A model generated the notes under the pieces. That model had not been told where the DNA came from and searched no databases. It saw only the letters and a program-made list of their open reading frames with translations. From contig JAEHGX010000003.1 in NCBI GenBank assembly GCA_019248265.1, positions 1 to 32,616 of the forward strand: DNA of 32,616 nt, given 5' to 3'. Numbering within the stretch: position 1 is the stretch's first letter; each line of letters starts with the position of its first letter. A program made the translations under genes and the position numbers. This document shows positions 296-31,754 of this stretch, piece by piece. This stretch comes from Candidatus Falkowbacteria bacterium S5_I03. Its GTDB lineage: Bacteria; Patescibacteriota; Patescibacteriia; Patescibacteriales; UBA12465.

Positions 296-1182
296 TGGGT
301 AAAAACGAAGAAATATGCCATAAATTTATTTATGCAAAAGAAGGAGAATCATATAATTATGCTTCATACAATGTATCATTTCATGGCAAAAAGCTTTATA
401 GCTATAACTCAGTATTAGCATATATCGATAGAGAAGCAAAAACACTTGTTGTAGAAGACAGAATTGCTAATTACAGTAATACATCTAGAAAACACTTTGG
501 ATGCCTTAGAGATGCTACTCCTATTTACTATAATATATTCAGAACTGATACATCTGATCCATTAGGTTTTTATATTGATAAAATTAATGAATTACTTACT
601 AAGCAATCAAGAGCTAGAAAAAGCGATTACACAAGAGAAATCAGAAAATACATCAATGAAGCTTATAACTATACAACTTTCTTCAATCAAGACAAGCGTT
701 CTAGCAACTACAAAGCAATCTTAAATTTCTACAATAATATTGATGATTTAGCAGCTCAAACACAAGCAGCACTAGACTATCAAGCAGAAGAAGCTAGAAA
801 AAAGAAACATCTAAAAGCACTATATGATAAAAAATATCAAGAATCAAGAAATGCACATTTAGCCAACTTCTTATCAGACGATGAATCTGGCGCTATCAAG
901 CCTAAAAAATATGATCCAAATTACAACAGTGTATATATCAAAAAGGTTGGAGACTTACTTTACACTACAAACAGTATTAGAGTTAATTTCACCAAAGCAC
1001 TGGCGCTTTGGAAACGATACATCTCAGATAAAGACATCATAGGTTTAAAACTGGAACAATACACAGTTGTAAAATCTTCTAAGGATTCAGTAACAATTGG
1101 TTGTACTACAATAAGCAATAAAGAAATGTCTAGAATTTTCAAGAACTATAAGGAGACAATAGATGAAATCAGTAACACTTAA
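295..1182 (+). CDS. Hypothetical protein, 295 aa
   Basis: The start is taken at ATG 295, behind an AAAGGAGA ribosome binding site at about 283-290 and overlapping the previous stop, rather than the in-frame TTG one codon earlier. The protein is rich in Tyr, Asn and Lys. Residues about 150-195 are a charged Ala/Gln/Lys/Glu stretch that probably forms a long helix or coiled coil. No signal peptide or catalytic motif is seen and the family is not recognised. Two copies of the window-wide octamer lie in it (887-894 and 1000-1007). The 3' end overlaps the next small gene by 20 bases. Confidence 0.75.
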   Translation: MGKNEEICHKFIYAKEGESYNYASYNVSFHGKKLYSYNSVLAYIDREAKTLVVEDRIANYSNTSRKHFGCLRDATPIYYNIFRTDTSDPLGFYIDKINELLTKQSRARKSDYTREIRKYINEAYNYTTFFNQDKRSSNYKAILNFYNNIDDLAAQTQAALDYQAEEARKKKHLKALYDKKYQESRNAHLANFLSDDESGAIKPKKYDPNYNSVYIKKVGDLLYTTNSIRVNFTKALALWKRYISDKDIIGLKLEQYTVVKSSKDSVTIGCTTISNKEMSRIFKNYKETIDEISNT

Positions 1183-1339
1183 TATTCAATTCAAAGACTT
1201 ATCTGAATCTAAACAGCAAGAACTTCAAGAAATGCTTGAAGCACTATGCCATGGCAAAGACCTAGATCCAGATTATAATTGCTTTGAACTTTATGTAGAT
1301 GTAACATTCTACGATGATGGTTCACAATATGTTAGATAA
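1163..1339 (+). CDS. Small hypothetical protein, 58 aa
   Basis: ATG 1163 follows AAGGAGACAATAG, a strong ribosome binding site at good spacing. The 58-residue frame ends at TAA 1337-1339. It overlaps the end of the gene before and the beginning of the gene after, as is typical of compact phage operons. The sequence starts with a beta-like segment and a Gln/Glu-rich helix and ends in acidic and aromatic residues. No family is recognised. The RBS and the overlap pattern are the main support. Confidence 0.6.
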   Translation: MKSVTLNIQFKDLSESKQQELQEMLEALCHGKDLDPDYNCFELYVDVTFYDDGSQYVR

Positions 1340-1565
1340 GGAATTAACTAAAAAACAAGTAAATATGATAGCTAAGCTACATATATATTCATTTTTTTAT
1401 TTATCAGATGGATTTGAATCAAAAGAATTATCTTATGAAAATAATCAAATCATATCAGATGAGATTAAAAAAATTTGTGAATACAATATTGATAAACTAA
1501 ATACTGGAACAGCTACAGATTCTGATTTATGTGTAAAATATATATTAGATAAGGATAAACAATGA
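1329..1565 (+). CDS. Small hypothetical protein, 78 aa
   Basis: Two further in-frame ATGs lie upstream (1314, 1317). ATG 1329 is preferred because it overlaps the preceding gene least, but none has a clear Shine-Dalgarno, so the start is uncertain. The protein appears mainly helical and acidic and is not recognised. It ends in an ATGA overlap with the next gene. Confidence 0.55.
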   Translation: MLDKELTKKQVNMIAKLHIYSFFYLSDGFESKELSYENNQIISDEIKKICEYNIDKLNTGTATDSDLCVKYILDKDKQ

Positions 1566-1807
1566 GAATTCCAGATTATGACGAATGGTTTGAAAAAACA
1601 GGTTCAGACAAATTTGATGAACTTCTTGATTCAATGGATGAATTTCTAAATGAAAACAATATTGGAAGCAAATTTACTCTTCAAAGCGCCAGAGTAATGT
1701 TAGAAGCAAACGAAGCAAGGATCCTTATGGAATGGTATGAAGCATACACATCTGAAATTCAAGATTATGCTTATGAAACAATGAAGGATGAAAGATGTAT
1801 GCAGTAA
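1562..1807 (+). CDS. Small acidic hypothetical protein, 81 aa
   Basis: The start ATG overlaps the previous TGA (ATGA), so translation is probably coupled. The protein is strongly acidic (many Asp and Glu) and predicted helical. No motif is recognised. Small acidic phage proteins are often inhibitors or DNA mimics, but nothing here establishes that. One octamer copy (1685-1692) is read as Ser-Ala-Arg. Confidence 0.65.
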   Translation: MRIPDYDEWFEKTGSDKFDELLDSMDEFLNENNIGSKFTLQSARVMLEANEARILMEWYEAYTSEIQDYAYETMKDERCMQ

Positions 1808-2025
1808 TTTATAATTATGAGCAACAATCAATTGGAATAGTAAATAACATTCAAGGAATATTTCACAAAGATGAATCAACAACTATTCATTCAAAAGATG
1901 TTAATACTTTAACAATTAAACATGGAAAAGTTTATATCTATAATGACAACAATAAACTTATTTCATGTTATAAAAATAATACTGGATTTATTTATAGAAT
2001 AAAAAAATTCTTTAAATTAATATAA
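1795..2025 (+). CDS. Small hypothetical protein, 76 aa
   Basis: The start overlaps the previous gene by 13 bases behind AAGGATGAAAG. The pattern of short beta-like segments ending in a basic, Phe-rich tail suggests a small beta-fold protein. No family is recognised. It is the last gene before a 326-base gene-free stretch. Confidence 0.6.
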   Translation: MYAVIYNYEQQSIGIVNNIQGIFHKDESTTIHSKDVNTLTIKHGKVYIYNDNNKLISCYKNNTGFIYRIKKFFKLI

Positions 2026-2351
2026 TAATCGGGATTCAGTAGTGACAATACACTAGAGTAATAGATATAGAAAACAACCTGTTGCAACAGATCTTCTTGA
2101 GGCTATGAGGGTATGTATTGAAAAGGTGATAACTGGCTACGAAACCTATCATTGTAGTGGGAAGACGATAGGAATATGGATGGGATTTCCAGATGTTGAT
2201 TGAAGCTCAACTAATCTTGTATATGTGAATATTATACTAAAGCAATAAATATTTATGGAGAGTAGAACTACAAGAGAAGCAGCTAAGCTACACGGTTTAA
2301 ATTAGCAACTACTCTCTAGTAAGTATTTAATTATATTAAAAGGACTAAATA
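2026..2351 (+). ncRNA. Gene-free, strongly structured region; candidate non-coding RNA
   Basis: No credible gene is seen in these 326 bases. They hold several inverted repeats: a 12-base palindrome CTGTTGCAACAG at 2079-2090; CCTATC/GATAGG at 2145-2150 and 2167-2172; AGAT-GTTGA paired with TCAAC-TA-ATCT at 2191-2217; and a 9-bp stem 2257-2265 with 2309-2317 enclosing GCTAA/TTAGC (2282-2286, 2302-2306). The last element spans 61 bases, looks superficially tRNA-like, but is too short and lacks a normal T arm. Group I R and S motifs were not found. It may be a phage small RNA or a structured leader for the downstream operon. Confidence 0.4.
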
Positions 2352-2822
2352 ATGAAATTCTGCATACAATGCGGTCACAAACTATGCGGAAAACAAACAG
2401 TATATTGTTCAAAAGAATGCACAAATGCTTATGTTAGATTAAAGAAAATTAATGATAAACTTTCAGCTAATAAAATCTTCTCAGATAATACTTCGGTTAC
2501 AATATTTCCAAAAGTTAAAAACAGAACAAAAAGATTACTAGTTGTAGACACCATATCATATGATGACAAATCATTCCTGAACTGGTGGATTAAACAATCA
2601 AAAGTTAAAAGAGTCTACGATATAAAAAAAGTTACATTCATAAGAAATGGAAGCATTGCATCTAGAACTATACCATGTCTGGCGCTCAACATAGCTGACC
2701 TAGAAAAACTTGTAAACTATGTAGAGCTAAAGATGAAAGATAATCACAGAGTAGATTTAAAAGACACTATCAGACACATTCTCAAAATAAGAGCCAGATG
2801 GATAGAAAAATTAAAAGGATAA
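2352..2822 (+). CDS. Zinc-finger hypothetical protein, 156 aa
   Basis: The N-terminus has CxxCG at residues 4-8, a further Cys at 12, and YCSKEC near residues 18-23. That is a typical small zinc ribbon. The rest is basic, with a Lys/Arg-rich C-terminal helix, which suggests nucleic acid binding. The start at ATG 2352 is supported by AAAAGGACTAAATA. It ends just before the next gene. Function is unknown, and a DNA- or RNA-binding regulator is only an inference. Confidence 0.7.
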   Translation: MKFCIQCGHKLCGKQTVYCSKECTNAYVRLKKINDKLSANKIFSDNTSVTIFPKVKNRTKRLLVVDTISYDDKSFLNWWIKQSKVKRVYDIKKVTFIRNGSIASRTIPCLALNIADLEKLVNYVELKMKDNHRVDLKDTIRHILKIRARWIEKLKG

Positions 2823-4086: not shown

Positions 4087-4306
4087 TGATTTATACAATG
4101 ATATTGAAGAACTTGAAGATGAAAACAATCCAGACAATGGAGAATTAATTAATTCATTAAGCTGTCTAATTTCAGCAATGAATGCAAGTGCAGCTGGGTT
4201 GATATCTGAGAAAAACTTTAATAAAACTTGTGACAATTTTAGACAAGATTTTCCAGATTATCAATTTCCAAACTGCATTTATTTCAAAGGAGATTCAAAT
4301 GAGTGA
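4076..4306 (+). CDS. Small acidic hypothetical protein, 76 aa
   Basis: ATG 4076 lies in the end of the previous gene behind AAAAAGAGAAAATA. The N-terminal third is very acidic (DDLYNDIEELEDE). A small, apolar helix follows. No family is recognised. It overlaps the nuclease gene by eight bases. Confidence 0.55.
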   Translation: MNIDDLYNDIEELEDENNPDNGELINSLSCLISAMNASAAGLISEKNFNKTCDNFRQDFPDYQFPNCIYFKGDSNE

Positions 4307-5162
4307 ATCAAAACAAAAACAACCAATAGACACAGGCTCATGGGCTTCTGATTTCGAAGCACTTCTGCTATTAGGTACTGAATACTCAGGAACAGCTAAA
4401 CCAGGTGATAAGGTGCTATCAGCTTCATCTATAGGTAAAGAATTATATTTTAATATTCTTCAGGTTAAACACGGAAAACTTGCTAATCAAAAGAATTATG
4501 GCGCTAATACAACTGGTTCTATTTATCAGTTAGGTCTTGATGCTTTAATAGCTCAATACGCAGAACCAGGTAGATACACAACAGCTGAACGATATAAACT
4601 TGACTTAGGTAACGGTTGGATTGTATCAGGTGAATACGATATTATTGACCATAAATATAAAATCATTATTGATGGTAAAGTTTTATCTGATTCAAGCTAT
4701 AAAAAGGTTATTATGAATGATATCAATCATGATTATAATCTTCAAGTTGCAACTTATAACATGCTAGAGTTTCACAAAACTGGTAATATCTACTCTGGCG
4801 CTTTGCATATTGTAAACAAAGGTGGTTCACCATCTAAAGACAATGTTATGAAAAACATGGAATTATTCATGCATGATGTTGACACAATCAAACAAATGTT
4901 TATTGACAGATCTGAAAAGATTCAATTTCATTTAGATAATAACACTATGCCAACAGATGATGACGAAATGTGCAATATCTTTGCATATGGTAAGTCAAAC
5001 GGCTCAGCCAACAGATGTTTATCATATTGTGACTATAACACTGTATGTCCAAGATACAACAACAATACACCATATTATGCTTCATCTCAAGTTAAAAATC
5101 TAGAAATAGAAACACCTAAAACAGAAGAAGAATACAAACCTGTAGAAAAATTTAGATTTTAA
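4299..5162 (+). CDS. Cas4/RecB-like PD-(D/E)XK nuclease with Cys cluster
   Basis: The start at ATG 4299 is chosen for its AAAGGAGATTCAA ribosome binding site. An in-frame upstream extension lies inside the previous gene. The core has a PD-(D/E)XK pattern: acidic residue in SGEYDII, then IIIDGKVLS (D-x-K), then LQVATYNM, the QxxxY motif of RecB/Cas4 nucleases. Near the C-terminus are four Cys in the order C...C-x2-C-x5-C, which in Cas4 and AddB binds a 4Fe-4S cluster. Such enzymes degrade or resect DNA ends. Next to Sak4-like, SSB-like and RuvC-like genes it probably supplies the exonuclease of a phage recombination system. Exact polarity cannot be told. Confidence 0.75.
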   Translation: MSESKQKQPIDTGSWASDFEALLLLGTEYSGTAKPGDKVLSASSIGKELYFNILQVKHGKLANQKNYGANTTGSIYQLGLDALIAQYAEPGRYTTAERYKLDLGNGWIVSGEYDIIDHKYKIIIDGKVLSDSSYKKVIMNDINHDYNLQVATYNMLEFHKTGNIYSGALHIVNKGGSPSKDNVMKNMELFMHDVDTIKQMFIDRSEKIQFHLDNNTMPTDDDEMCNIFAYGKSNGSANRCLSYCDYNTVCPRYNNNTPYYASSQVKNLEIETPKTEEEYKPVEKFRF

Positions 5163-5174: not shown

Positions 5175-5201
5175 AAGCGCCAGTACTCAGTGCTGGTGTT
5201 A
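5175..5201 (+). terminator. Hairpin built on an AGCGCCAG copy
   Basis: GCGCCAG (5177-5183) can pair with CTGGTGT (5193-5199) using two G-U pairs across a 9-base loop, right after the nuclease stop codon. No long U-tract follows, so it may be a weak terminator or an mRNA-end stabiliser. Confidence 0.4.
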
Positions 5202-5933: not shown

Positions 5934-8660
5934 ATGGCTTATACACTTCGAAAACATCAAGAAGACATAATAGAACAAGAAATGGCAGCCATAACATTTG
6001 GTGAAACAAAACTAATGCTAGATTGCCCACCAGCGTATGGCAAAGAGCAACCATATTCTGAGCCAGTTCTGACATCAAACGGTTGGAAAACAATGGGAGA
6101 GTTAACTTTAAATGATAATGTTATAGGTTCTGATGGTTTGTCTAAATCAATAACTCATATTCATGAACAAGGAACAAAAGATGTTTATGAAATTACTTTT
6201 CTTGATGGAAGCTCTACAAGATGCGGAATAGACCATTTATGGACATACAGAGAAAGACAGGATCCATATAGAACTGGATCGTTATCTGAAATAATGAACA
6301 AAAAAAGCGCATTAAAAGAAAAGAAAATCAAAATAAAACTTCCAGCTCCAGTTGAATTCTATCAAGATAATACTTTGCCGCTAGATCCATATACTCTTGG
6401 AGCATTATTAGGTGACGGTTCTTTTAGAAATGCACAAATATCTCTTTCTAACAATAATGAAAAGATCAGAAACAAAGTTATATCATCTCTTCCAGCTGGA
6501 GACTTTGTATCAAGAGAATATATAAGAAACGAAGGAAGAAAACACGATATATTCTTTTCAAGAAAAGGAAGATGCAAAACAAATCTTGCATCAATACTTG
6601 AATCTTTTGGATTACTAAATCACAAATCTGTTGAAAAGTTTATACCTGATATTTATATGTATTCATCTATAGAAAACAGAAAACAATTACTACAAGGACT
6701 TCTTGATACAGATGGACATCTTGTTAATTGCAAAAACAAATACTATGAGTATTCTACATCATCTAAAAGATTAGCAAATAATATAATAAATCTAGCTAGA
6801 AGCCTAGGATTGTATGTTTTTTCATCATCAAGAATTCCAACATATTCACATAAAGGTGAAAAAAAAGAAGGATTGTTAAATTATAGAGTTTACATAAATT
6901 TTGATAGAAAAGAAAAATCAATAGTTTCAATAACTAAACTAGATTATCAAGAAAACAGTAGATGTATAACAATTAATTCAAGTGATAGTTTATACATTAC
7001 AAAAGACTATACTTTAACTCACAATAGTCTTGTTATGGCTGAAATGGCAAGAATCAACCAAGACACTGGTGTTATTTTAATGATTAATATAACAGCTCTT
7101 CTTGAACAGATTGCAGCTCATCTTGATGAACAAGGTGTAACCTATTCAATCCTGAAAGCTGATTATACTAATCACTTCGATCCAGATTGTAAAGTTCAGC
7201 TTATTATGGCTCAAACACTTCATGCAAGAATTGGTAAAATTAATTTCAAACATAAATTCAAAATAATGCAAATTGACGAAGGTCATATAGCTCATCCAGA
7301 TGTATCAAAAAGAACAGCTGATTGTATTGATTTTATTAAACCAGAAGTCCAAATTCTTTATTCTGGAACTCCATATACTGCAGAAGGTTATGCTTTTTCA
7401 GGTTATGAATATTTATCTAATCTTGGAACAAAAGAACTTCAAGACGCTGGATTTTTGTGTCCTATTAAATACTTTGTTCCTAAATGGGCTGAAGACATTG
7501 ACTATTCAGATGTTAAAACTACTACAAACGATTATAACACTGTAGAACTTGATAAAATCATTAACACAACAAGTCACCTAAATCTGGCGCTTAGCTCAAT
7601 GAATGAGATGAATGCTAAATCTAAAAAGACAATTGTTTTTTGTTCATCTATAGACCAAGCCAACAACTTTGAAGAAATCTTAAGAAAAGACGGATACAAT
7701 GCAAGAGCTTATCACTCTAAAACAGATAAAAGACTTTCACCATTAATCCTTGATGCGTTTATAAACAACACATCTTTTGTTAAGCCCGAAGATAAAGATA
7801 AGAATCTATTCAACCAAGATGACACTCAAGAAGCGCCAGGTGAGATGGTTACATGTCTACTATCTATCGGTAAGCTATCGGTTGGTTTCGACTGCCCTGA
7901 TGTATCTCTAGGTGTTCAATTAAGGGTAACAAAAAGCTTACCTCTTTATCTTCAAATGATTAATCGCTTAAGCCGTAATCATCCATCTAAGCAATTCTCT
8001 GAATATCTCGATTTGGGAAAAACAGTTTCAACTTTTGGCTTCCACACAGATCATTTTGAACCAGTTCATAGAGACTTAGTTAATCCAGAAAAATCTAAAA
8101 AACTTCTAGAAGATAGAAAAAAACTTCTAGGCTTAGAAGACTTATCTGTTATCATTGATGATGAATCACCAGTTGAAATAACTAGAGAATTCTATGATGT
8201 TAAGATGCAAGAACTTAAATCAAAACTTGAAAAATCTAATCAAGAATCTTTAACAATCCAGGATTTAATCAAATCATTCAAAATGGCTAAAGAAGCAATT
8301 ACTATTATTATAGTTGGTTCTCAACTTATGACTAAAGCCTATGGTGATCCTGTATCTAAAGCTGGGAGACCATACAAATATGATCCACTTTGGATTTACG
8401 AAGAATGGGAAAAAGCATTCGCTAAATATCCTGAAAAAATTACTCAATGGACTAGAGCTTTAAAAACAAGAACTGGAAACATAATTAAAGAAGAGAAAAA
8501 TTTCAATTCACTTAGATTCTTTATTGATTTCCTGGTTAAAAACTATTTAGAAGAAAGCGTATCAATAATTGATGAATACAAAAAACCTGATAATCATATC
8601 AATAATCTTAGAACATCTATTCCACAGATAGATATAGATGAATCCGAAATACCCTTTTAA
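5934..8660 (+). CDS. SF2 DEAD-like helicase precursor with inserted intein
   Basis: The 908-residue precursor is a helicase of about 581 aa once the intein (residues 38-364) is removed. The N-extein ends CPPAYGK and the C-extein begins SLVMAE, rejoining to a Walker A motif PPAYGKS. Later motifs are IDEGH (motif II), YSGTP (motif III) and MINRLSRNHPSK near the C-terminal RecA domain (motif VI). This layout resembles UvsW-type phage helicases, which remodel branched DNA during recombination-dependent replication. The UvsW comparison is inference from motif order. The helicase should be inactive until the intein splices, because the ATP-binding loop is interrupted. Confidence 0.88.
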   Translation: MAYTLRKHQEDIIEQEMAAITFGETKLMLDCPPAYGKEQPYSEPVLTSNGWKTMGELTLNDNVIGSDGLSKSITHIHEQGTKDVYEITFLDGSSTRCGIDHLWTYRERQDPYRTGSLSEIMNKKSALKEKKIKIKLPAPVEFYQDNTLPLDPYTLGALLGDGSFRNAQISLSNNNEKIRNKVISSLPAGDFVSREYIRNEGRKHDIFFSRKGRCKTNLASILESFGLLNHKSVEKFIPDIYMYSSIENRKQLLQGLLDTDGHLVNCKNKYYEYSTSSKRLANNIINLARSLGLYVFSSSRIPTYSHKGEKKEGLLNYRVYINFDRKEKSIVSITKLDYQENSRCITINSSDSLYITKDYTLTHNSLVMAEMARINQDTGVILMINITALLEQIAAHLDEQGVTYSILKADYTNHFDPDCKVQLIMAQTLHARIGKINFKHKFKIMQIDEGHIAHPDVSKRTADCIDFIKPEVQILYSGTPYTAEGYAFSGYEYLSNLGTKELQDAGFLCPIKYFVPKWAEDIDYSDVKTTTNDYNTVELDKIINTTSHLNLALSSMNEMNAKSKKTIVFCSSIDQANNFEEILRKDGYNARAYHSKTDKRLSPLILDAFINNTSFVKPEDKDKNLFNQDDTQEAPGEMVTCLLSIGKLSVGFDCPDVSLGVQLRVTKSLPLYLQMINRLSRNHPSKQFSEYLDLGKTVSTFGFHTDHFEPVHRDLVNPEKSKKLLEDRKKLLGLEDLSVIIDDESPVEITREFYDVKMQELKSKLEKSNQESLTIQDLIKSFKMAKEAITIIIVGSQLMTKAYGDPVSKAGRPYKYDPLWIYEEWEKAFAKYPEKITQWTRALKTRTGNIIKEEKNFNSLRFFIDFLVKNYLEESVSIIDEYKKPDNHINNLRTSIPQIDIDESEIPF
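6045..7025 (+). mobile_element. Intein with LAGLIDADG homing endonuclease (class 3 features)
   Basis: The intein is 327 aa. The N-block starts EQPYSEPVLTSNGW with no Cys or Ser nucleophile at position 1. Block B contains DHLW (Trp103), block F RCITI (Cys344) and block G TLTHN followed by Ser, with Thr362. This Trp/Cys/Thr triplet is the hallmark of class 3 inteins, which splice through the block F cysteine. Two endonuclease motifs are present, LGALLGDGS (residues about 155-163) and LLDTDGH (about 256-262), so the homing endonuclease looks intact. It sits directly after the Walker A Lys. It contains no exact copy of the octamer that is frequent in the flanking extein. Confidence 0.93.
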
Positions 8661-8708: not shown

Positions 8709-9035
8709 ATGAAAGAAGAACGATATTTAAGAAGAGATAGTCATATCAATAAAGCATTTAATCTTACTTATGCATCATGGTTAATTTTACCAAGAACTTT
8801 ACTTATGGATATGCCTATTAAATGGCAAGAAAAATTTGTAAAACTTCTTGATGAATACAATGAATCAGTTGCAGACTTAGCGCCAGATTATGAGCTACAA
8901 CTATATGTTCAAGCTAAACAATCTGGAAAATTTACAAAGCTACCACAAGCATATTGCAACTATAGACATCCACAGCACATGGATGTATGCGATATCAGAT
9001 GCTTTTCACAATCAACATTAAATGATAATTTATGA
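8709..9035 (+). CDS. Hypothetical protein, 108 aa
   Basis: The start follows AAAAAGGACAACAA. The sequence contains LTYASWLILPRTLL, then MPIKWQEKFVKLLDEYNE, then a Tyr/His/Cys-rich end (YCNYRHPQHMDVCDIRC). Four Cys/His near the C-terminus could bind metal. This resembles small unknown proteins common in phage genomes, but I cannot name the family. One octamer copy (8879-8886) is read as Leu-Ala-Pro-Asp. Confidence 0.65.
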   Translation: MKEERYLRRDSHINKAFNLTYASWLILPRTLLMDMPIKWQEKFVKLLDEYNESVADLAPDYELQLYVQAKQSGKFTKLPQAYCNYRHPQHMDVCDIRCFSQSTLNDNL

Positions 9036-22624: not shown

Positions 22625-23206
22625 ATGCCTAGAATACACGAAACAATAATATATTCATTTGATGAATTATCAGCACAAGCAAGAGAAAAAGCAGTAGAGC
22701 ATTTTCAAGAATACAACTCTTACCTAGATTATGATTGGCATGGAGACACAATAGATGACTTCAAAACAATACTTGAACTTATAGGTTACTACGATATCAC
22801 TTGCTACTTCTCAGGTTTTCACTCTCAAGGTGATGGAGCTTGTTTTAGCGCCAGATTTGAAAGAAACAAACGATGTCTAGAAAAAGTTAAATCTTATTGT
22901 CCAAAAGAAGAAGAAATTCTTAATATAGTTGAACAGATTCAATCTGAAATTCCATTAAGAGAAAAATATGAGATTAAGCACTCAGGTCATTATTATCACG
23001 AATACTGCACAAATGTGTACTATTTAGGTGACAATAATAAAGCAGAACAACTTGATGAAAGATTCTTAGAACTATCAAGAAAGCTAATGGGAATACTATA
23101 TGAAAGTCTAAATGATGAATATGATTATCTTAATTCATCAGAATCAATAATTGAACACATAAAAGCAAACGATTATGAATTTACAGAAGACGGAACATTA
23201 AACTAA
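22625..23206 (+). CDS. Conserved phage protein, 193 aa, function unknown
   Basis: The N-terminus reads IYSFDELSAQAREKAVEHFQEYNSYLDYDWH, and later YFSGFHSQGDGACFSARF. This pair of motifs is familiar from a widespread family in phages of many hosts, often labelled with little basis as an antitoxin of a toxin-antitoxin system. No toxin partner is seen next to it. The YSFDELS and SQGDGACF signatures are what I rely on. Start follows AAAAGGAAAACCACA. Confidence 0.7.
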   Translation: MPRIHETIIYSFDELSAQAREKAVEHFQEYNSYLDYDWHGDTIDDFKTILELIGYYDITCYFSGFHSQGDGACFSARFERNKRCLEKVKSYCPKEEEILNIVEQIQSEIPLREKYEIKHSGHYYHEYCTNVYYLGDNNKAEQLDERFLELSRKLMGILYESLNDEYDYLNSSESIIEHIKANDYEFTEDGTLN

Positions 23207-23624: not shown

Positions 23625-24213
23625 ACTTACGAAAAACCAATTAAAAAACCTTATCATATCATGCGATACAAAAAATCCAAAATATGAATTAAATTTCATA
23701 TATATTGATAAGCAAAACGCTGTATCTACAAACAGTAGATGCATAACGGTTATCGAACATAATCAAAACACAGAAGAAATGTGGTTACATATTTCACTTG
23801 CTAAAACAGCAATCAAAGATTCAAAAGCTACACATTTTATTATCGAATCAAACAATTCAATTATATCATTTGATAAAGATAATTTCCATATCATGAGATA
23901 TTCTATTGATATGACAGACTATACTTACTCAACAATGAAATTTCCAGATTACAATAGAATTATTCCACAATCATGCACTAAGTCAAATATTCCATTCACT
24001 GATGCATCTCAAATACAAGGTATACTGGCGCTAGATGAAGTTAATGTAAATCCTAAATATTTACCATTAATTAATGAAGGATATATCTCATATAATGCAG
24101 ATGACTTACCAGTAATGATTCAAGATTCTGAAAAAATAATAACTCATGTAGTAATGCCAATAATAAGCGACAAATTCAAAGAATTAAAAGATTATCTAAA
24201 GAAAAATAAATGA
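23617..24213 (+). CDS. Unassigned protein, 198 aa; possible sliding-clamp-like fold
   Basis: Residues 20-55 (FIYIDKQNAVSTNSRCITVIEH) and the end ITHVVMPIISDKF are reminiscent of beta-clamp proteins, where a short strand 'x-Val-x-Met-Pro-x' ends the last domain. At 198 aa it is about half the length of DnaN, like many phage clamp homologues. The resemblance is weak and from memory, so the call is tentative. It lies beside helicase and primase-type genes, which fits a replication role. One octamer copy is at 24025-24032. Confidence 0.45.
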   Translation: MIKLTKNQLKNLIISCDTKNPKYELNFIYIDKQNAVSTNSRCITVIEHNQNTEEMWLHISLAKTAIKDSKATHFIIESNNSIISFDKDNFHIMRYSIDMTDYTYSTMKFPDYNRIIPQSCTKSNIPFTDASQIQGILALDEVNVNPKYLPLINEGYISYNADDLPVMIQDSEKIITHVVMPIISDKFKELKDYLKKNK

Positions 24214-24277: not shown

Positions 24278-24955
24278 ATGCAAGAAATATTTAAAGATAT
24301 AAGTGGATATGAAAGTTTATATACAATTTCAAACACAGGAAAAGTAATTTCATTATCTAAAAATGATGGAAATGGATACAGAGATAGAGAATTGATTCAA
24401 GAAATAATAAAAAGAAATCATACAAATTATAGAAGAGTAACTTTATCTAAAAATGGAAAAACAAAAAGATTTCAAGTTCATAGATTAGTTGCTATTGCAT
24501 TTTTAGAAAATTCAGAAAAAAAACCATTTGTTAATCATATTGATAGTAATGGAGAAAATAATAATGTTAAAAATTTAGAATGGAACACTCAAAAAGAAAA
24601 CATGGAACATTCTAAAAATAAAAATAGAAGTTATTCTACAAATGTTATGCAAATAAAACAAGAACTTGCAACAAAAAAAAGAATAGAAAATAGAAATGAA
24701 AAATCAAAAATTAATTTTGGAAAAACTTTTGGATTTGTAAAAATACTAGAAGAAACAAGAGAAAAAATAGGAAATTATAAATTTGGTCATAATAGATTTC
24801 AATATAAATGTTTATGCACAAGATGTAATTTTACGGAATCTTGGAAAGAAATATATTTATTAAAATCTGGAAAATATGTGCAATGTCAATCATGTACAAA
24901 AAGATATGGAAAAGAAAATTTAGAAACATTAAAAAATAAAGGAATTATAGAATAA
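24278..24955 (+). CDS. NUMOD4-HNH homing endonuclease upstream of the helicase
   Basis: The first 45 residues (EIFKDISGYESLYTISNTGKVIS) are the NUMOD4 module. VHRLVAIAFLEN...FVNHIDSNGENN and NLEWNTQKEN then form the HNH nuclease. The C-terminal 70 residues have CLCTRC and CQSC, a zinc finger for DNA recognition. It has its own promoter and RBS (AAAAAGGAAAAAC). Its stop overlaps the helicase ATG (TAATG), so it has inserted exactly at the helicase start, and the helicase may be translated by coupling to it. It carries no octamer copy. Confidence 0.88.
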   Translation: MQEIFKDISGYESLYTISNTGKVISLSKNDGNGYRDRELIQEIIKRNHTNYRRVTLSKNGKTKRFQVHRLVAIAFLENSEKKPFVNHIDSNGENNNVKNLEWNTQKENMEHSKNKNRSYSTNVMQIKQELATKKRIENRNEKSKINFGKTFGFVKILEETREKIGNYKFGHNRFQYKCLCTRCNFTESWKEIYLLKSGKYVQCQSCTKRYGKENLETLKNKGIIE

Positions 24956-26249
24956 TGGCTAGAACAGAAGAACAACAAAAAATAATAGACACATGTGTGT
25001 CTGTTTTACAAGGAGGAAATCCAGAGAAAGCACTAGTAAAAATTAGTGCAGTCGCTGGATCTTGAGGTCTGGTAAAACTTTTACACTTATCGAAATAGCA
25101 AAAGAACTTGAATCTTATTGCAGATCGAACAATCTTCCATTTACTGGTAGATATTTAGCTTATAACAAATCAATAGCTGAAGAAGCATCAGAAGAGTTTC
25201 CTAAATATGTAGAATGCTCTACAGTTCATTCTATGGCTTACAGAGCTACTGTTAGACAATTCAGCCTAAAACTTGGTCCAACACTTAAACCTTTGGATTT
25301 TAAAGACAGATGCTCATACCAAGACAAACAACTTTTAATTTTTCATCTTAATGAATTTTATTTATCTGAATTTGTTGCAGTATCTGACTATATAACTTCT
25401 CTTGACATGGATGATGGATTAAATCATATTGAAGAACTTATGAAGAAATATATGAAACTTATGAGCACTGGACAATTTCCATGCTCTCATGCATTTTATT
25501 TAAAGTTTTATCATATATTATTAGCTAATGATATTTTAAAACCAGCATATCAAACAATGTTGTCAATGGATGAATCAGGCGACTGCAACTCTGTCACTAT
25601 CGAGATATTTAAGCTTTTAAAAGCTGATATCAAAATAATGGCTGGTGATCAATATCAAAATATTTATGGATTCAATAATACTATTAATGGTTTTAAATCT
25701 ATGGAAAATCAAGGAATATTAACAACTTTATCAAAAACATTTAGAGTTTCAGCAAACATTGCATCAAAGATTGAATCATTTGCAAAGGAATACATTGATG
25801 AAAACTTTGTATTCATAGGTAACGATTATGAGGAAAAAACAGAAAACTCAATAGCTTATATATCAAGAAACAATTCTATGCTTATTGATAAAATGATATC
25901 TTTTGATAACAAGAATATTCCGTATAATCTTACTCGTTCTCCACAAAAAATGTTTGAAGTTCCATTGACAATATTAAATCTTAAACCATACAAAGATGTA
26001 TTGAACAAAGAATACAAATTTCTTGAAAAAGATGCAATTGAATTTCATGAAGATTTATTTCTTCAAAGAGAATATGGAACTCTTTTCAAATACATTATGA
26101 ATAAACACTCTGATGATATAGCAATCAAATCAGCTTGTACATTAATAATGAAACACGGACCATCTAAGATATTCTCTACATACGATAATGCTAAAAACCA
26201 TGCTGTAGGTGAAAACAAACACCTAATAACACTGACAACTGCGCATAGT
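24955..26249 (+). CDS. UvrD/FBH1-like SF1 helicase, exon 1 (frame interrupted at Walker A)
   Basis: Frame 1 runs from ATG 24955 (MARTEEQQKIID) to AVAGS and a TGA at 25063-25065. The second frame begins RSGKTFTL and continues to TLTTAHS at 26249. Removing eight bases (25063-25070) gives AVAGSGKT, a perfect SF1 Walker A. Later motifs are MDESGDCN (motif II, with Gly where DEAQD has Gln), AGDQYQNIYGF (motif III) and LTTAHS at the intron joint (motif V). Exon 2 at 28033 completes the protein. Such helicases unwind DNA in repair and recombination. Whether this copy is translated through the break is unknown. Confidence 0.78.
25060..25070 (+). other. TCT-TGAGG-TCT interruption inside Walker A
   Basis: The codons GCT GGA TCT are followed by TGA GG and then TCT GGT AAA ACT in another frame. 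The two TCT codons flank TGAGG. If translation hopped from the first TCT to the second, the product would read AVAGSGKT. This mimics the T4 gene 60 bypass (take-off codon, stop, matching landing codon), but over a far shorter gap. A simple inactivating insertion or a sequence error gives the same DNA. Confidence 0.6.
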
Positions 26250-26303
26250 TAACATAAATTAATTTTAAAAAAAACATTCAGCAAAACTCAAGACGTTTTA
26301 TGT

Positions 26304-26309
26304 TACAAT
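26304..26309 (+). promoter_or_regulatory. Extended -10 of first intronic endonuclease gene
   Basis: TG-T-TACAAT lies 28 bases before the ATG at 26332. No clear -35 is seen, as is usual for extended -10 promoters. Confidence 0.4.
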
Positions 26310-26331
26310 AAAGCAAAAAAAAGAGTATAAA

Positions 26332-27000
26332 ATGAAAATGAAACCATTAAATCAATCTGAATATACAATGAAGATTATAAAAGATTTAGGAATGACAACA
26401 GCTAATGAAAACACAACAAGTACAGGAAGATATGCAATATTTGAGTGTACAAAATGTTCAAAACATTTTAAAGCAAGATGTAGTGGATCTGTAGCAAAAG
26501 CTCAGACAACATGTCATGAATGTACACTTAATCCACTAGAAACAACAAAACATCCATTATATGCAATATGGAATGGAATAAAGCAAAGATGCTATAGTCC
26601 AAAAAGAAAAGATTATTGCAAATATGGTGCAAAAGGTGTAACTATGTGTGATGAATGGAAAAATAATCCACAATCATTTATAGATTGGTGTATTGAAAAT
26701 GGATGGAATAATTCATTGGTTGTTGACAAAGATATAAAATGCAGAGAACTTAATATTTCTCCAACAATTTATTCTCCTAAAACAATAACTTTTATAACAA
26801 CTCAACAAAATGCAGAAGAAGCAAATGCAATTCCTGTATTACAATACGATTTGAATATGAATTTTATATCAGAACATGTTTCTGCTCAAAAAGCAGCAAA
26901 CAGTGTAGGACTAAAAGAAGGATCATCTGTAACATCATGTTGCAAAGGAAGAAGCAAAACTTCTGGTGGTTTTATATGGAAATATAAAAATATAAATTAA
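26332..27000 (+). CDS. HNH homing endonuclease with NUMOD1 module (P1 loop)
   Basis: The N-terminal zinc finger has FECTKCSKHF and TTCHEC. The nuclease block HPLYAIWNGIKQRCYSPK...KYGAKGVTMCDEW follows, of the same type as the gene in the RuvC-like cassette. The usual 'NCRW' end is less clear here. Residues about 168-222 (PVLQYDLNMNFISEHVSAQKAANS...GGFIWKYK) are a NUMOD1 DNA-binding module. At 222 aa it appears complete and probably cuts the intronless helicase allele near motif V. Confidence 0.85.
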   Translation: MKMKPLNQSEYTMKIIKDLGMTTANENTTSTGRYAIFECTKCSKHFKARCSGSVAKAQTTCHECTLNPLETTKHPLYAIWNGIKQRCYSPKRKDYCKYGAKGVTMCDEWKNNPQSFIDWCIENGWNNSLVVDKDIKCRELNISPTIYSPKTITFITTQQNAEEANAIPVLQYDLNMNFISEHVSAQKAANSVGLKEGSSVTSCCKGRSKTSGGFIWKYKNIN

Positions 27001-27093
27001 TTTATAACAGCTCGCATATGGAGAATATCCATATGTCGCTATCTACTAAATAGCTGGAAACTCCTTCTTATCAAATTATAAGTTCCATAGTGT

Positions 27094-27099
27094 TATACT
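27094..27099 (+). promoter_or_regulatory. Extended -10 of second intronic endonuclease gene
   Basis: TG-T-TATACT lies 26 bases before the ATG at 27125. RBS AAGGATAAGCGG follows. The -35 is not recognisable. Confidence 0.4.
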
Positions 27100-27124
27100 A
27101 TATTAAACTTATAAGGATAAGCGG

Positions 27125-27748
27125 ATGAATATATGTAAAAAATGTAATAAAGAATATAGTTCTGTATACACTCAAAATAGTGGTTATACATACACAAATC
27201 TAAACACTGTATTTTGCAGTAAGAAATGTGCAACAACATACCAAAGAGGTTCTTTGAGTATAGATATATTGGAAAAAGAAATTATAGACTTTGTTATAAG
27301 TAAAAATAGGTACTGTACACAAGAAGAAATACACAAGGGAATTAAAAGGTCTTCTAAAACATTGATTAAGTTTAAAATTAGTATAAAAAATATTCAAAAC
27401 AATATAGGATTTACAAAGAGTAAATCTCATTTTGAAGAACAAGTGCTTTCGCACTTAAAAAAATATTTTACTGATATTGAGTGTGAAAAAACATTTAAAA
27501 ACTTATTATCTCCAAAAGGTTTTAATTTGCGAATTGATTTTTATATAAAAAAATTTAATTTAATAATAGAAGCTGATGGAAGACAGCATGTAGACATAAA
27601 TAATCCTTGGTATAAATCTTATTATGCAAATTGTGATTTATTGAAAAATAATTACGCAAAAAAGCATAATATTAATATAATTAGAATACCTTACATTAGA
27701 AACGTAACAGATATTTATATTAAAAAATACCTATCAGAATTCATTTGA
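27125..27748 (+). CDS. Vsr/EDxHD-type PD-(D/E)XK homing endonuclease
   Basis: The N-terminus has a zinc finger (CKKCNKEY...FCSKKC). After a helical spacer, residues about 140-207 read LRIDFYIKKFNLIIEADGRQHVD and end KKHNINIIRIPYI. The order D...E-x-D-G-x-Q-H is that of Vsr-like endonucleases, including the phage EDxHD homing enzymes. It occupies the P4-P5 side of the intron. Having a second, unrelated endonuclease in the same intron is unusual. It may cut a neighbouring site or a different allele. Confidence 0.82.
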   Translation: MNICKKCNKEYSSVYTQNSGYTYTNLNTVFCSKKCATTYQRGSLSIDILEKEIIDFVISKNRYCTQEEIHKGIKRSSKTLIKFKISIKNIQNNIGFTKSKSHFEEQVLSHLKKYFTDIECEKTFKNLLSPKGFNLRIDFYIKKFNLIIEADGRQHVDINNPWYKSYYANCDLLKNNYAKKHNINIIRIPYIRNVTDIYIKKYLSEFI

Positions 27749-28032
27749 GAGCTTTTCTATAGCGCCAGATGATGGTGTGATGAACAAGGAAAAGATTGGA
27801 CAATCAGCAGCGATATGATATTTAATCATAAAGCTTCAACGACTATCGCTGAGATGCGAGTACACCCAAGTGGGAGCAATAAGCTTTAAACGGAAACGGT
27901 AGACACCGCAAAACATTATATTTAATAATGAAGGTGAAGATATAGTCTGGTCTATATGGAAACATATAGAAGTTCATGAGAGAACTGACACAAGAGAGAG
28001 ATGATATCAACGACTTGTGTTGAACAAAAACG

Positions 28033-28290
28033 AGCAAAGGTTTGACTTTTGACACAGTGCATATTTTGCCAGATCTAAATGAATCTTTAACTAAAACATT
28101 TAAAGAAGTTGAAGAACTTATGTATTTAACAAACTTAAAAATAGAAGACACATCTGAACATGTAACATTAAAAGACTGCATGAATCAATATCAGCTAGAA
28201 ACCATGCTTTTGTACTATGTCGCAGTTTCAAGAACCAAACATAGATTACATAATGCTATACACCTAAATTGCGGATCAGTTATAGAATGA
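28033..28290 (+). CDS. UvrD/FBH1-like helicase, exon 2
   Basis: Exon 2 begins SKGLTFD, completing motif V, and ends with QLETMLLYYVAVSRTKHRL, motif VI, and a short tail NAIHLNCGSVIE before TGA. It has 85 codons. With exon 1 the total is about 515 aa, smaller than UvrD but adequate for a phage SF1 helicase. The last 17 residues reappear, diverged, at the end of the endonuclease ORF downstream (29445-29498). Confidence 0.85.
   Translation, partial: SKGLTFDTVHILPDLNESLTKTFKEVEELMYLTNLKIEDTSEHVTLKDCMNQYQLETMLLYYVAVSRTKHRLHNAIHLNCGSVIE
28237..28290 (+). repeat. Helicase C-terminal end, copy A (pair with 29445-29498)
   Basis: The last 17 codons and stop of helicase exon 2. The protein matches copy B at 11 of 17 positions, with many codon differences, so the two are related but not recent duplicates. 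The endonuclease gene lies between them. Confidence 0.75.
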
Positions 28291-28397
28291 TATAAATATT
28301 TTTTATTATCTTGCGCGATGTATTTGATCAAGTTAAACATAATTTAATAAAATAAATTGTATTATTCTTTAAATAAAACAAAACTAGGATAAAAAAA

Positions 28398-29498
28398 ATG
28401 AAATATTGTACAAGATGTGAATTAAAAAAAGATAAAAATAAATTCATACCAAGAAAAACAAATGGAAATTTTGTAAAAAAAGATGGAACACCTAGAACTA
28501 CAAATGTATGTTCTGACTGTATATCTTTAGCAAAAAAAATGACATACAAAAATAAAGAAATGCTTCCAAGATATATATATAAACATCAAGTTAGAAATTC
28601 AATAAAAAGAGGACATTTAGCGCCATCATATACACTTGAAGAATTTACTAAATGGATATATAGTCAAAATAATTTTAATATATTGTTTGAAAATTGGGAA
28701 AAATCAGGATACAAAAAAGAATTAATTCCTTCTTGTGATAGATTGGAGAATTCAAAAGGATATTCTTTTGATAATATAGAACTTGTTACTTTTGGAGAAA
28801 ATGCAAATAGAGCATACAATGATACAAAAAATTGTGTGTTAGGTAGCTCATCAAGAAAAGTGTATCAGTATTCGCTTGATGGTTATTTTATAAAAGAACA
28901 TATTTCTCAAGCAGATGCTCAAAGAAATGTACCAAATGCAGATCAAAGAAATATATCTGCTTGTTGTGAAGGAAAAATAAATCAACATGCTAGATTCCAA
29001 TGGAAACATAATTATGAAGGACCAAAAATTAATCCAGTTGAAACAATAAATGATTACAATAGACCAATATATAAATATTGTGCATTTACTGGAAAACTTG
29101 AGAATAAATTTAATTCTTTATTAGATATAGAAGGTGATACAAATTACATAGTTAGAGTAAGATGGAGCATTAGGGAAGAAAAACATGTTGAATTTAAGCA
29201 GTATTTATTTGATGAATTAACAAAAGAGGAATATTTAAATAAATTTAAAATACCATCAACAAAGCCAGTACACGCATATGATGAAAAATTAAATTTTTTA
29301 GGAAAATATGAATCTGTTGCAGAAGCAAGTAAATATTTTGATAATTCAAGTTCTGCAATATCAAGATCATGTCAAAAAAAAAATAAAGCATTGACAAATG
29401 GATACAGTTTTAGATTTTTCTATGAAGACGAAATTGCAGAAGCAAAACATAGACTATACAACGCAGAACATCTAATAGCTGGAAATATTATAGAATAA
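28398..29498 (+). CDS. HNH-like homing endonuclease with NUMOD1 repeats, fused to a helicase 3' end copy
   Basis: The 366-residue ORF has an N-terminal zinc finger (CTRCE, VCSDC). The nuclease region SCDRLENSKGYSFDNIELVTFGEN (about 112-135) is followed by at least two NUMOD1-like modules, VYQYSLDGYFIKEHIS...FQWKH and PVHAYDEKLNFLGKYESVAEASKYF...SFRFF. Its last 17 residues (from 29445) match the helicase end at 11 positions in K-H-R-L-x-N-A-x-H-L-x-x-G-x-x-I-E. So the endonuclease landed in the helicase 3' end, and the original end now belongs to its ORF while a replacement end sits upstream, or the reverse. Confidence 0.82.
   Translation: MKYCTRCELKKDKNKFIPRKTNGNFVKKDGTPRTTNVCSDCISLAKKMTYKNKEMLPRYIYKHQVRNSIKRGHLAPSYTLEEFTKWIYSQNNFNILFENWEKSGYKKELIPSCDRLENSKGYSFDNIELVTFGENANRAYNDTKNCVLGSSSRKVYQYSLDGYFIKEHISQADAQRNVPNADQRNISACCEGKINQHARFQWKHNYEGPKINPVETINDYNRPIYKYCAFTGKLENKFNSLLDIEGDTNYIVRVRWSIREEKHVEFKQYLFDELTKEEYLNKFKIPSTKPVHAYDEKLNFLGKYESVAEASKYFDNSSSAISRSCQKKNKALTNGYSFRFFYEDEIAEAKHRLYNAEHLIAGNIIE
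29445..29498 (+). repeat. Helicase C-terminal end, copy B
   Basis: The end of the endonuclease ORF, translated KHRLYNAEHLIAGNIIE. It is followed directly by the normal AAAGGAAAACACC spacing to the next phage gene. Copy B may therefore be the original helicase end. Confidence 0.75.
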
Positions 29499-29719: not shown

Positions 29720-29730
29720 AGGAAAACACA

Positions 29731-30360
29731 ATGGAACTTAAAAAACCAACAGACTTATACTATATTCAAGACTCAAGAGAATACGTTGGTAACTGCGTAG
29801 TCTTCTGGGGTAAGAACAATAGTGGTTATGTATGCGACATCAATAAAGCTGGATTATATACTTATGAAGAAGCTATGTCTCAGCACAAATCAAGACACAC
29901 TGATATCCCATGGCTAAAAGAAGATGTTGAAAACGCACTTAGAACATTCTGTGATGCACAATATCTTTCAAAGCGCCAGCATGAGGTATACGATGAGCTA
30001 CAAGAGCTTAAAAACCAAAGAGCAATAGAAAACAAGGCTAGAGAAGAATCAATCAATGCTAGCCAATTAAAAGATGATTTATTTTACACAATTGAAGTAT
30101 TAAATAGTAATATATCTTTGCCACTTATTAAAGAAGACATTATTGATGCAATAAGAGAATATGTTACTCCATCTCAATATTTTAATTCATATCATACGCC
30201 AATTATTTATAAAATGATTGCATCTGAAATATTTGACTCATTAGTTGAAAACAAATATTTATTTGAATGTGAAAAATGTGGAAAATATCAAGATTATTTA
30301 GAGGAAGATTTATGCTACAGCTGCAACGAAGAACTAGAAGAGGAAAAAGATGACAACTAA
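29731..30360 (+). CDS. Hypothetical protein with C-terminal zinc ribbon, 209 aa
   Basis: The N-terminus YYIQDSREYVGNCVVFWGKNNSGYVCDINKAG...YTYEEAMSQ recalls small unknown phage proteins that carry a similar 'tryptophan-glycine' strand. The middle is helical and charged. The C-terminus has CEKCG and CYSC (about residues 183-200), a zinc ribbon. Function is unknown. One octamer copy (29972-29979) is read in the third frame. Confidence 0.7.
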   Translation: MELKKPTDLYYIQDSREYVGNCVVFWGKNNSGYVCDINKAGLYTYEEAMSQHKSRHTDIPWLKEDVENALRTFCDAQYLSKRQHEVYDELQELKNQRAIENKAREESINASQLKDDLFYTIEVLNSNISLPLIKEDIIDAIREYVTPSQYFNSYHTPIIYKMIASEIFDSLVENKYLFECEKCGKYQDYLEEDLCYSCNEELEEEKDDN

Positions 30361-30643: not shown

Positions 30644-30701
30644 CTTGTGGTCTTGATAAGCTCTCTACTGCAAGTAGTAAAAAACAAAACAGGGATATAT
30701 T

Positions 30702-30968
30702 ATGAAAGATGAATTATCTATTGACATATTAAAATCAAAATATGATATTGATATTGGAGACAAAATAACTTATGCTAAAACAAAATGTACGGTACTTAAA
30801 ATTGGAACAAGCAATACTGGAATGCTTGTAATGTTTTTAAAAGATATAAAAAAAAGCAAAAATGAGTTAACTTATGGATTTATTATTAGAGAAGATGAAA
30901 TAAGTAAGCTTTATTTACATAAAAGATTTAAAAAAGCTAGTGAACTATTTAGAAAAAAGGAAAAATAA
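30702..30968 (+). CDS. Small hypothetical protein, 88 aa
   Basis: The core DIDIGDKITYAKTKCTVLKIGTSNTGMLVMFLKDIKKSKNELT resembles the second half of the protein at 31160. Its beta-rich pattern 'I-x-I-G-D-x-[IV]-x-Y...K-C' suggests a small barrel domain. The C-terminal tail is basic. Function is unknown. AGGGATATATT lies before the ATG. Confidence 0.6.
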   Translation: MKDELSIDILKSKYDIDIGDKITYAKTKCTVLKIGTSNTGMLVMFLKDIKKSKNELTYGFIIREDEISKLYLHKRFKKASELFRKKEK

Positions 30969-31163
30969 ATGAAAAGAAAAATAAAAAATGCATTAAGAAT
31001 GACATTCAAGCAACATTCAGAAGAATTAGACTTAAATCTTTTTAAACAAAATGTAGAAAAAATAGACTTTGGATATATTACAGAACAAGGAAATTCTTTT
31101 GTAGATGGTGAGATTCAAGAGTTTGCAACCATTAAAATATATTTCAAAAAGGATAATAAATGA
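30969..31163 (+). CDS. Small hypothetical protein, 64 aa
   Basis: It follows the previous gene with no gap, behind AAAAAGGAAAAATAA. It is basic at the N-terminus, then mixed. No family is recognised. It overlaps the next gene by four bases. Confidence 0.6.
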   Translation: MKRKIKNALRMTFKQHSEELDLNLFKQNVEKIDFGYITEQGNSFVDGEIQEFATIKIYFKKDNK

Positions 31164-31501
31164 ATCATGAGATTTATAAAGAACAAATGGATATGCTAGA
31201 TACAAAAGCTAAAGAACTATCTAAGCAAATTGATATAGTTAATATTCAAAAAAAAATATTAAAATATAATTATATTGAATTTTTAAAAAAAGAAGCAAAT
31301 ATTGAAATTGGAGATAGAGTTATGTATAGAGGAAATAAATGCTGGATATATGAATTTTCATTTGATTACTTTAATAAAGGATTAGTTGCAAAACTTAAAA
31401 AAGTTAAAAAAGATGGAACAAATGGAGAACAATCAGCTGATTCATATGGAACTCTAGTTGATAAACTAATAAGGACAATAAATGAACAAACAAGAATTTA
31501 G
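31160..31501 (+). CDS. Hypothetical protein, 113 aa, coiled coil plus barrel-like domain
   Basis: Residues 1-45 form a likely coiled coil (EQMDMLDTKAKELSKQIDIVNIQKKIL). Then IEIGDRVMYRGNKCWIYEFSFDYFNKGLVAKLKKVKK matches the barrel-like core of the protein at 30702. The two are therefore domain paralogues. Function is unknown. Confidence 0.6.
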   Translation: MNHEIYKEQMDMLDTKAKELSKQIDIVNIQKKILKYNYIEFLKKEANIEIGDRVMYRGNKCWIYEFSFDYFNKGLVAKLKKVKKDGTNGEQSADSYGTLVDKLIRTINEQTRI

Positions 31502-31754
31502 AATGAAAGACAAACACAGATCTTTTAAACATCAAAAAGCGCCAGTTATTAATAAACCAGACACATCTCTATCTGGCGCTATTATAGATAATAACACTTT
31601 AGAAAATAGCATGTTAGATGACTTATGTTCTGTATTTCAAGAATCAACTTCTAAAGCGCCAGATAAGAAGAACTCATACAATAAGGTACTTATATCAGCA
31701 ATAATAATTTCAGCTGTTGTATCTACCTTAATATATCTATCTGGCGCTAATTAA
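31482..31754 (+). CDS. Small tail-anchored membrane protein, 90 aa
   Basis: Start ATG 31482 overlaps the previous gene. An alternative start is ATG 31503. The first 65 residues are polar, and residues about 68-87 (VLISAIIISAVVSTLIYL) form one membrane helix followed by a short end, so the protein would be anchored by its C-terminus with the N-terminus in the cytoplasm. Four octamer copies fall in 273 bases, read as Lys-Ala-Pro or Leu-Ser-Gly-Ala. No family is recognised. Confidence 0.6.
   Translation: MNKQEFRMKDKHRSFKHQKAPVINKPDTSLSGAIIDNNTLENSMLDDLCSVFQESTSKAPDKKNSYNKVLISAIIISAVVSTLIYLSGAN

Follow-up and report, generated by a model that had tools for sequence, protein, structure and literature searches.

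Short words that recur in excess along a whole genome, such as Chi, the uptake signal sequences and DNA uptake sequences (USS and DUS) and the highly iterated palindrome HIP1, are to our knowledge known from cells, and phages had been seen only to take over words that belong to their hosts. Recently acquired DNA contains few Chi sites. In the chromosome of its host Chi is in excess and polarised with replication, and its recognition by RecBCD/AddAB attenuates degradation. In Escherichia coli phages without RecBCD inhibitors, Chi is over-represented (PMC3784561; PMC8022716), with a median observed-to-expected ratio (O/E) of 2.5 and a density of 0.2 per kb (PMC3784561). The effect is found in phages that carry a recombinase and no inhibitor, and among those that package concatemers it is strongest in T5- and P1-like phages (PMC3784561). 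Here we describe the octamer AGCGCCAG in a 32,616-nucleotide stretch of DNA (hereafter the window) from the assembly of Candidatus Falkowbacteria bacterium S5_I03, where it forms the core of an asymmetric site of about 25 nt that recurs throughout a genome classed by gene content as that of an N4-like phage. The window represents bases 1-32616 of a 100.4-kb contig (C20) within the 1.11-Mb assembly.

Abundance and strictness of the octamer

The window was found to contain 20 copies of AGCGCCAG and 18 of CTGGCGCT, its form on the other strand, from 887 to 31748, exactly as counted in an earlier reading made from the sequence only. The octamer is the top-scoring 8-mer of the window, where its order-2 Markov expectation is 0.19 and all other 8-mers lag far behind; the over-representation reported by that reading is confirmed, and is larger than it had stated. 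The individual copies, identified as exact matches, are as follows.

887..894, minus strand, octamer copy
1000..1007, minus strand, octamer copy
1685..1692, plus strand, octamer copy
2679..2686, minus strand, octamer copy
4795..4802, minus strand, octamer copy
5176..5183, plus strand, octamer copy, intergenic
7584..7591, minus strand, octamer copy
7832..7839, plus strand, octamer copy
8879..8886, plus strand, octamer copy
9230..9237, plus strand, octamer copy
9301..9308, minus strand, octamer copy
9619..9626, minus strand, octamer copy, intergenic
10449..10456, plus strand, octamer copy
11627..11634, minus strand, octamer copy
11721..11728, plus strand, octamer copy
12755..12762, minus strand, octamer copy
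14156..14163, plus strand, octamer copy
15671..15678, plus strand, octamer copy
15940..15947, minus strand, octamer copy
16039..16046, minus strand, octamer copy
16169..16176, plus strand, octamer copy, intergenic
17948..17955, plus strand, octamer copy
18330..18337, minus strand, octamer copy
18632..18639, plus strand, octamer copy
20444..20451, minus strand, octamer copy
21028..21035, plus strand, octamer copy
21593..21600, minus strand, octamer copy
21630..21637, plus strand, octamer copy
22559..22566, plus strand, octamer copy, intergenic, inverted pair with 22586 (27 bp apart)
22586..22593, minus strand, octamer copy, intergenic, inverted pair with 22559
22847..22854, plus strand, octamer copy
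24025..24032, minus strand, octamer copy
27761..27768, plus strand, octamer copy, intergenic
29972..29979, plus strand, octamer copy
31538..31545, plus strand, octamer copy
31573..31580, minus strand, octamer copy
31655..31662, plus strand, octamer copy
31741..31748, minus strand, octamer copy

The density in C20 as a whole (124 copies) is the same as in the window, whilst the 11.2-kb sister contig C9 carries 21 copies and the remainder lie in gap sequence supplied by a second assembly. Like Chi, AGCGCCAG is a short exact word in strong excess, with 155 exact copies (81 plus, 74 minus) in the joined phage sequence of 117,603 bp against 0.4-1 expected under order-1 and order-2 Markov models. 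The O/E was 416 at order 1 and 163 at order 2, falling to 15.6 at order 3 and 4.3 at order 4, orders high enough that the model already includes the word itself. Copies occur about once per 760 bases when both strands are counted, or about 1.3 per kb, which corresponds to 0.69 per kb per strand. The 24 octamers that differ from AGCGCCAG by one mismatch are present in 0-12 copies each, mostly 0-6 and near expectation, the commonest being AGAGCCAG with 12. Across the joined genome the overall spacing is near-random, and neither helical nor 3-bp periodicity was detected in the spacings.

A signal at the level of DNA

Most copies (127) lie inside open reading frames (ORFs), with 28 intergenic against 15 expected at 90% coding. 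All six frames are used (sense 19/5/40 and antisense 18/43/2 for phases 0/1/2); frames that force Trp-Arg or Arg-Gln are rare, and those that give SGA/TGA, KAP, LAL or SAR are common. Codon choice is overridden, in that 58 of the 117 GCG codons fall within motifs. Use of six frames and both strands, together with the overridden codon use, rules out a protein repeat or a codon product as the origin of the word, and upholds the earlier proposals that all three reading frames are used and that the signal acts on DNA, not on mRNA or codons. Identity to the proteins of relatives is 22.5% at motif positions versus 35.1% overall, and in 63 of 75 site comparisons the alignment to relatives has no gap, which argues that substitutions at tolerant positions created the word; the gap-free alignments also rule out an insertion element. 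AGCGCCAG is thus a DNA-level signal which the proteins accommodate.

The octamer is also scarce in recent arrivals, as had been suggested from the sequence. Inteins and homing-endonuclease-like genes (7.0 kb) hold one copy versus 9.7 expected (P=6e-4), a deficit for which their slightly lower G+C content (27.7%) is insufficient to account. Within the window, neither the intein nor any of the five endonuclease-like genes contains a copy, in agreement with the sequence-only reading, whose statement that a RuvC cassette is likewise free of copies fails if the resolvase-like gene at 15645-16145 (phrog_1770) was meant, as this gene has three. The same reading had placed one copy in a group I ribozyme; Rfam finds no group I intron in the window at E<=0.5, and this detail falls away.

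Extent of the site

Base composition around the octamer departs from background only from about -9 to +16. In the left arm (-8 to -3) C reaches 25% and G 9%, and in the right arm (+11 to +16) G reaches 31% and C 6%, relative to a background of about 15% each further out. The signal of single columns is partly one of codon phase, with G at every third base; the windows compared were whole codons, and the arms are present at coding and intergenic sites alike (p=7e-16 and 5e-9, respectively, for the right arm), so that a pure codon-phase effect was rejected. The octamer is consequently the core of an asymmetric site of about 25 nt, whose composition resembles a protein footprint. Both this extent and the orientation effects between copies, described below, are newly recognised.

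A hairpin promoter of the N4 type was considered for the extended site and rejected, given that its arms show no more complementarity than swapped controls: the longest stem measured 3.82 in true sites versus 3.78 when arms were swapped, and no covarying diagonal was seen.

Orientation of neighbouring copies

Of 154 pairs of adjacent copies, 98 are opposite in orientation (64%; permutation p=0.00045), as are 96 of 152 (p=0.0009) once one duplicated pair is removed. Gaps between copies on the same strand are more regular than under shuffled orientation (coefficient of variation 0.84 versus 0.98, p=0.0016). Pairs in the same orientation and less than 300 bp apart number 16 versus 29.3 expected (p=0.003), and opposite pairs at this distance are not depleted (37 versus 29.6 expected). 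These tests were picked after the data had been seen, and the p-values are to be read as moderate evidence only. No strand bias of the sites along the genome was observed. Avoidance of the same orientation implies that redundancy is counted per orientation, as expected for a site read one way or on one strand, and neither this nor the alternation is predicted for a tag read equally from both sides.

Three inverted intergenic motif pairs, with 19-20 nt between copies, were noted at window 22559-22593, C20:59026-59061 and L004:5392-5426, and could form hairpins like the USS-pair terminators of Haemophilus. A recent tandem duplication of about 1.4 kb, comprising two genes and one motif pair, lies at C20:52559-55389 (L002:560-3390), and a 94-nt tRNA-like gene called as Phe(aaa) (L004:4914-5007, minus strand) overlaps an octamer copy at its 3' end.

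Distribution beyond the phage

The non-phage part of the source assembly carries 20 copies in 340 kb versus 14.7-20.6 expected (orders 2-3), giving an O/E of 1.0-1.4 at orders 2-4, with about 50 copies in the approximately 1.0 Mb of non-phage assembly overall. C9 shares the low G+C content of C20, and the rest of the assembly is at about 40% G+C. Background counts only were obtained from 39 related genomes of the Candidate Phyla Radiation (CPR), and no enrichment was found in the host part of the single-cell genome S2_F12, in which the same phage occurs (see below). The suggestion that the octamer is a tag shared with the host is hence rejected for the cellular part of the assembly with which the phage was recovered and for the related CPR genomes.

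Related phages, compared as partial sequences, do not share the motif either, a possibility that the sequence-only reading had wished to see examined. Three relatives with head proteins 45-49% identical (90-101 kb each) hold one copy in 287 kb and show no word of a similar kind themselves; of the 50-kb sequences compared from N4, Presley and DSS3phi2, the first two have no copy and the last has one chance copy. With six relatives lacking enrichment, a general property of N4-like phages is rejected. The closest piece found (head protein 61% identical, 9.1 kb) contains no copy, and searches with the primase and the virion RNA polymerase returned no close relatives. The motif-less relatives show that the word originated, and spread to fill the genome, within one phage lineage. 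A 15-mer scan of IMG/VR for other viruses with a dense motif gave mostly single hits; in the few dense hits (L084, L107), copies are all or nearly all on one strand and lack the flanking arms.

The carrier phage

The virion genes of C20 include those for a portal (phrog_1216, E=2e-135), a major head protein (phrog_1357, E=1e-61) and a virion RNA polymerase (phrog_2206, E=9e-151), and its replication genes include an N4 gp43-type primase (phrog_2135), Sak4 (phrog_124) and a single-strand DNA-binding protein (SSB; phrog_743). A class I ribonucleotide reductase is also encoded. Gene order resembles that of N4 and Presley, and the gp43-type primase and Sak4/SSB module are common to both. The contig is accordingly assigned to an N4-like (Schitoviridae-type) phage of lytic type, a class predicted from gene content and not a formal taxonomic one.

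A 100% match to the major head protein was located on a contig of the Candidatus Shapirobacteria single amplified genome S2_F12, obtained from individually printed cells of a winery wastewater lagoon (PMC8241940). Six S2_F12 contigs match the phage at 99-100%, and one of these (29.5 kb) bridges C20 and C9 to give the 117.6 kb analysed here. Since two different CPR single cells yielded this phage, it is either a phage of CPR bacteria or one whose abundant virions were sorted together with the cells. Of the 380 genomes sampled from the phylum, the source assembly alone gave a strong head-protein match. The identical phage copies inflate the 'host' gene content of two public CPR assemblies.

Genes of the window that bear on the reading of the site, and the regions free of copies, are listed below.

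4230..5162, plus strand, PD-(D/E)XK exonuclease of N4 gp42 type, candidate phage-encoded reader or target (PF12705 E=1.9e-4, just under the curated cut-off; phrog_1227 exonuclease)
6045..7022 (about), plus strand, helicase intein splitting the Walker A motif, no copy (boundaries from sequence)
12813..13553, plus strand, Sak4-like ssDNA annealing protein of N4 gp44 type, the predicted recombinase of the phage itself (phrog_124 E=1.2e-31)
14064..14759, plus strand, single-strand DNA-binding protein of N4 gp45 type (phrog_743)
16291..16569, plus strand, HU-like DNA-binding protein, candidate binder (PF00216 E=3.8e-22)
25062..26252, plus strand, UvrD/RecD-like helicase of N4 gp37 type, candidate reader (PF00580 5e-4; conserved in motif-less relatives)
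24278..29498, plus strand, stretch with four homing-endonuclease-like genes, no copy inside the genes (24278-24955, 26332-27000 and 28398-29498 by family; 27125-27748 by its sequence)

Several further observations were made on this genome. At 117.6 kb or more (the window, L001-L004, L021, L204 and L205), it is much larger than the N4-like isolates of 70-79 kb met in the searches. The virion RNA polymerase match falls in an ORF of 1446 aa (L001:2906-7246) that adjoins one of 2934 aa (L001:7275-16079), as if a giant N4-type protein had been split in two. There are three inteins, one in the helicase Walker A motif (window 5934-8660) and two in the terminase large subunit (ORF of 1399 aa, L003:5417-9616). 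An HNH nuclease is fused to a RepL-like winged-helix domain (L001:660-1397; C20:32659-33396), and three separate ORFs resemble the latter domain (C20:32163-32747, C20:67894-68400 and L004:7493-8080), these RepL assignments being weak except for one (E=1.2e-7). A metallo-beta-lactamase-fold protein is encoded at L002:13574-14314 (C20:65573-66313); an Apyc1-like anti-Pycsar Pfam match in the phage is placed on this gene by its HxDH-like motif only.

Possible functions of the site

Some factor in the phage life cycle must read AGCGCCAG, and most likely it is a machine of recombination or nuclease action that does so in one direction. We tentatively favour, at somewhat below even confidence, the octamer as the core of an orientation-read, Chi-like control site for a helicase-nuclease or recombination machine of the host or the phage, a role ranked first because of the orientation effects. 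A helicase-nuclease, either a host enzyme of the RecBCD/AddAB type or a phage exonuclease/helicase, would enter phage DNA at a double-strand end, read the word in one direction, halt its destructive degradation and hand the strand to recombination (Sak4, SSB). Each orientation would serve one direction of entry, so that both strands would be stocked separately, from which equal strand use, alternation and same-orientation avoidance would follow; selection on the DNA itself would keep the 25-nt site at its density along the whole genome. The phage carries Sak4, a RecB-type nuclease and a UvrD-type helicase, whilst the Pfam matches listed for it include no Gam/Abc2 family. Several points weigh against this role. 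The O/E, above 100, and the density, 0.69 copies per kb on each strand, are far higher than those of Chi in E. coli phages, and the orientation effect is moderate, with 64% alternation. RecBCD, the best-described reader of the Chi type, is a host enzyme, for which an enriched host genome is expected; no bacterium is known whose Chi matches, and the source assembly is not enriched. Flanks on both sides of the core are, moreover, not a known feature of Chi. Chi-like control was missing from the roles listed by the sequence-only reading, of which uptake, protein binding (including partition and packaging) and modification are retained here as rivals.

An uptake tag of the USS/DUS type, spread through long recombination inside a naturally competent host under the same molecular drive, is a less likely explanation that nonetheless accords with much of the statistics: a strict core with weaker flanks over about 25-30 bp, about one copy per kb, both strands, an origin by point mutation, inverted pairs between genes and scarcity in new genes (USS facts from PMC7811141). 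Temperate Pasteurellaceae phages do accumulate the USS of their hosts, although large, likely lytic phages are USS-poor (PMC6776037), and the carrier here is of the lytic, N4-like type. The cellular genome of the same assembly is not enriched, and avoidance of the same orientation is not predicted for such a tag. AGCGCCAG is not known to match the Hin- or Apl-USS or the Neisseria DUS. It is similarly unlikely, though plausible, that a sequence-specific DNA-binding protein encoded by the phage recognises the copies, and thereby organises, partitions, counts or packages the genome or gives it a mark of self. The motif is specific to a phage lineage and not to a host, a 25-nt site fits a dimeric or multi-domain protein, and candidates exist in two ParB-like proteins, the HU-like protein and the RepL-like winged-helix family (up to four members, one HNH-fused), for whose paralogues no match was found in five relatives without the motif. 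Most matches to RepL are weak, and the ParB-like, HU and helicase genes occur in motif-less relatives also; known partition and packaging systems use one or few sites and not 155, and an orientation effect is not an obvious expectation. We regard with considerable doubt a genome-wide identity code of the phage, in which each strand would bear a 25-nt orientation-read tag every 1.5 kb or so and a phage-encoded reader (for example the RepL-like and HNH fusion, or a ParB-like protein) would cause phage DNA, and not other DNA, to be spared, processed or packaged.

The remaining candidates appear improbable. A methyltransferase or other marking enzyme acting at the octamer could protect or label phage DNA in the manner of HIP1, words of which type occur at up to 1-2 per kb and have been tied to methyltransferases (PMC4390886); those words are palindromic and AGCGCCAG is not, restriction targets are usually avoided and not enriched, and the Pfam matches listed for 81 phage ORFs, which cover the first 25 families, include none for a DNA methyltransferase. 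Programmed single-strand nicks as in T5-like phages are more doubtful still: the octamer has AGCGC in common with the T5 major-nick consensus R/GCGCRGG, and the phage encodes an HNH-winged-helix protein, yet the nick sites known from phages are scarce and confined to one strand (PMC3517423), as opposed to 155 spread evenly over both. Equally remote is a role in replication priming or transcription, as a primase recognition site or N4-type hairpin promoter. N4-like phages have their own virion RNA polymerase and gp43-type primase, and the spacing per strand of about 1.5 kb is near the length of an Okazaki fragment. The unpaired arms, the presence of sites inside genes in both directions, the even use of strands along the genome and the relatives that have the primase family without the motif all speak against it, and no primase is known to read eight or more bases.

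Comparison with known systems

The consequences differ with the host. If the host shares the word, the word identifies that host and reveals, in an uncultured bacterium, a Chi or uptake system not described before; if it does not, the word is a self-recognition code of the phage, and an identity code, if true, would constitute a self/non-self system written in DNA sequence and not in base modification.

Among described systems, Chi resembles AGCGCCAG in being an exact, GC-rich, asymmetric octamer that is scattered along phage DNA, in excess there and scarce in recent arrivals. Orientation matters for the function of Chi, and here it shows in moderate statistical effects between copies. The present word differs in its O/E of more than 100 versus about 2-3, its density of 1.3 versus 0.2 per kb and its flanks on both sides; it is also distinct from all described Chi motifs, with no known host having such a Chi. 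The USS and DUS are alike in density, strict core with weaker flanks, use of both strands, origin by point mutation and occasional inverted intergenic pairs, and unlike in that the carrier here is a lytic-type phage, an enriched cellular genome was not found, the sequence is unfamiliar and the same orientation is avoided (PMC6776037, PMC7811141). HIP1 of cyanobacteria is likewise an octamer at about one per kb, far above expectation and overriding codon choice (PMC4390886), whereas it is the palindromic GCGATCGC, cellular and methyltransferase-linked, and AGCGCCAG is non-palindromic. The nick sites of T5, phiKMV and tf share a short phage-specific consensus, that of T5 having RGCGC in common with the octamer (PMC3517423), but are few and single-stranded, compared with 81 plus and 74 minus copies here. 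Set beside these systems, a lytic-type phage lineage whose relatives have no such word carries one of its own at a density equal to or above that of Chi, USS/DUS and HIP1.

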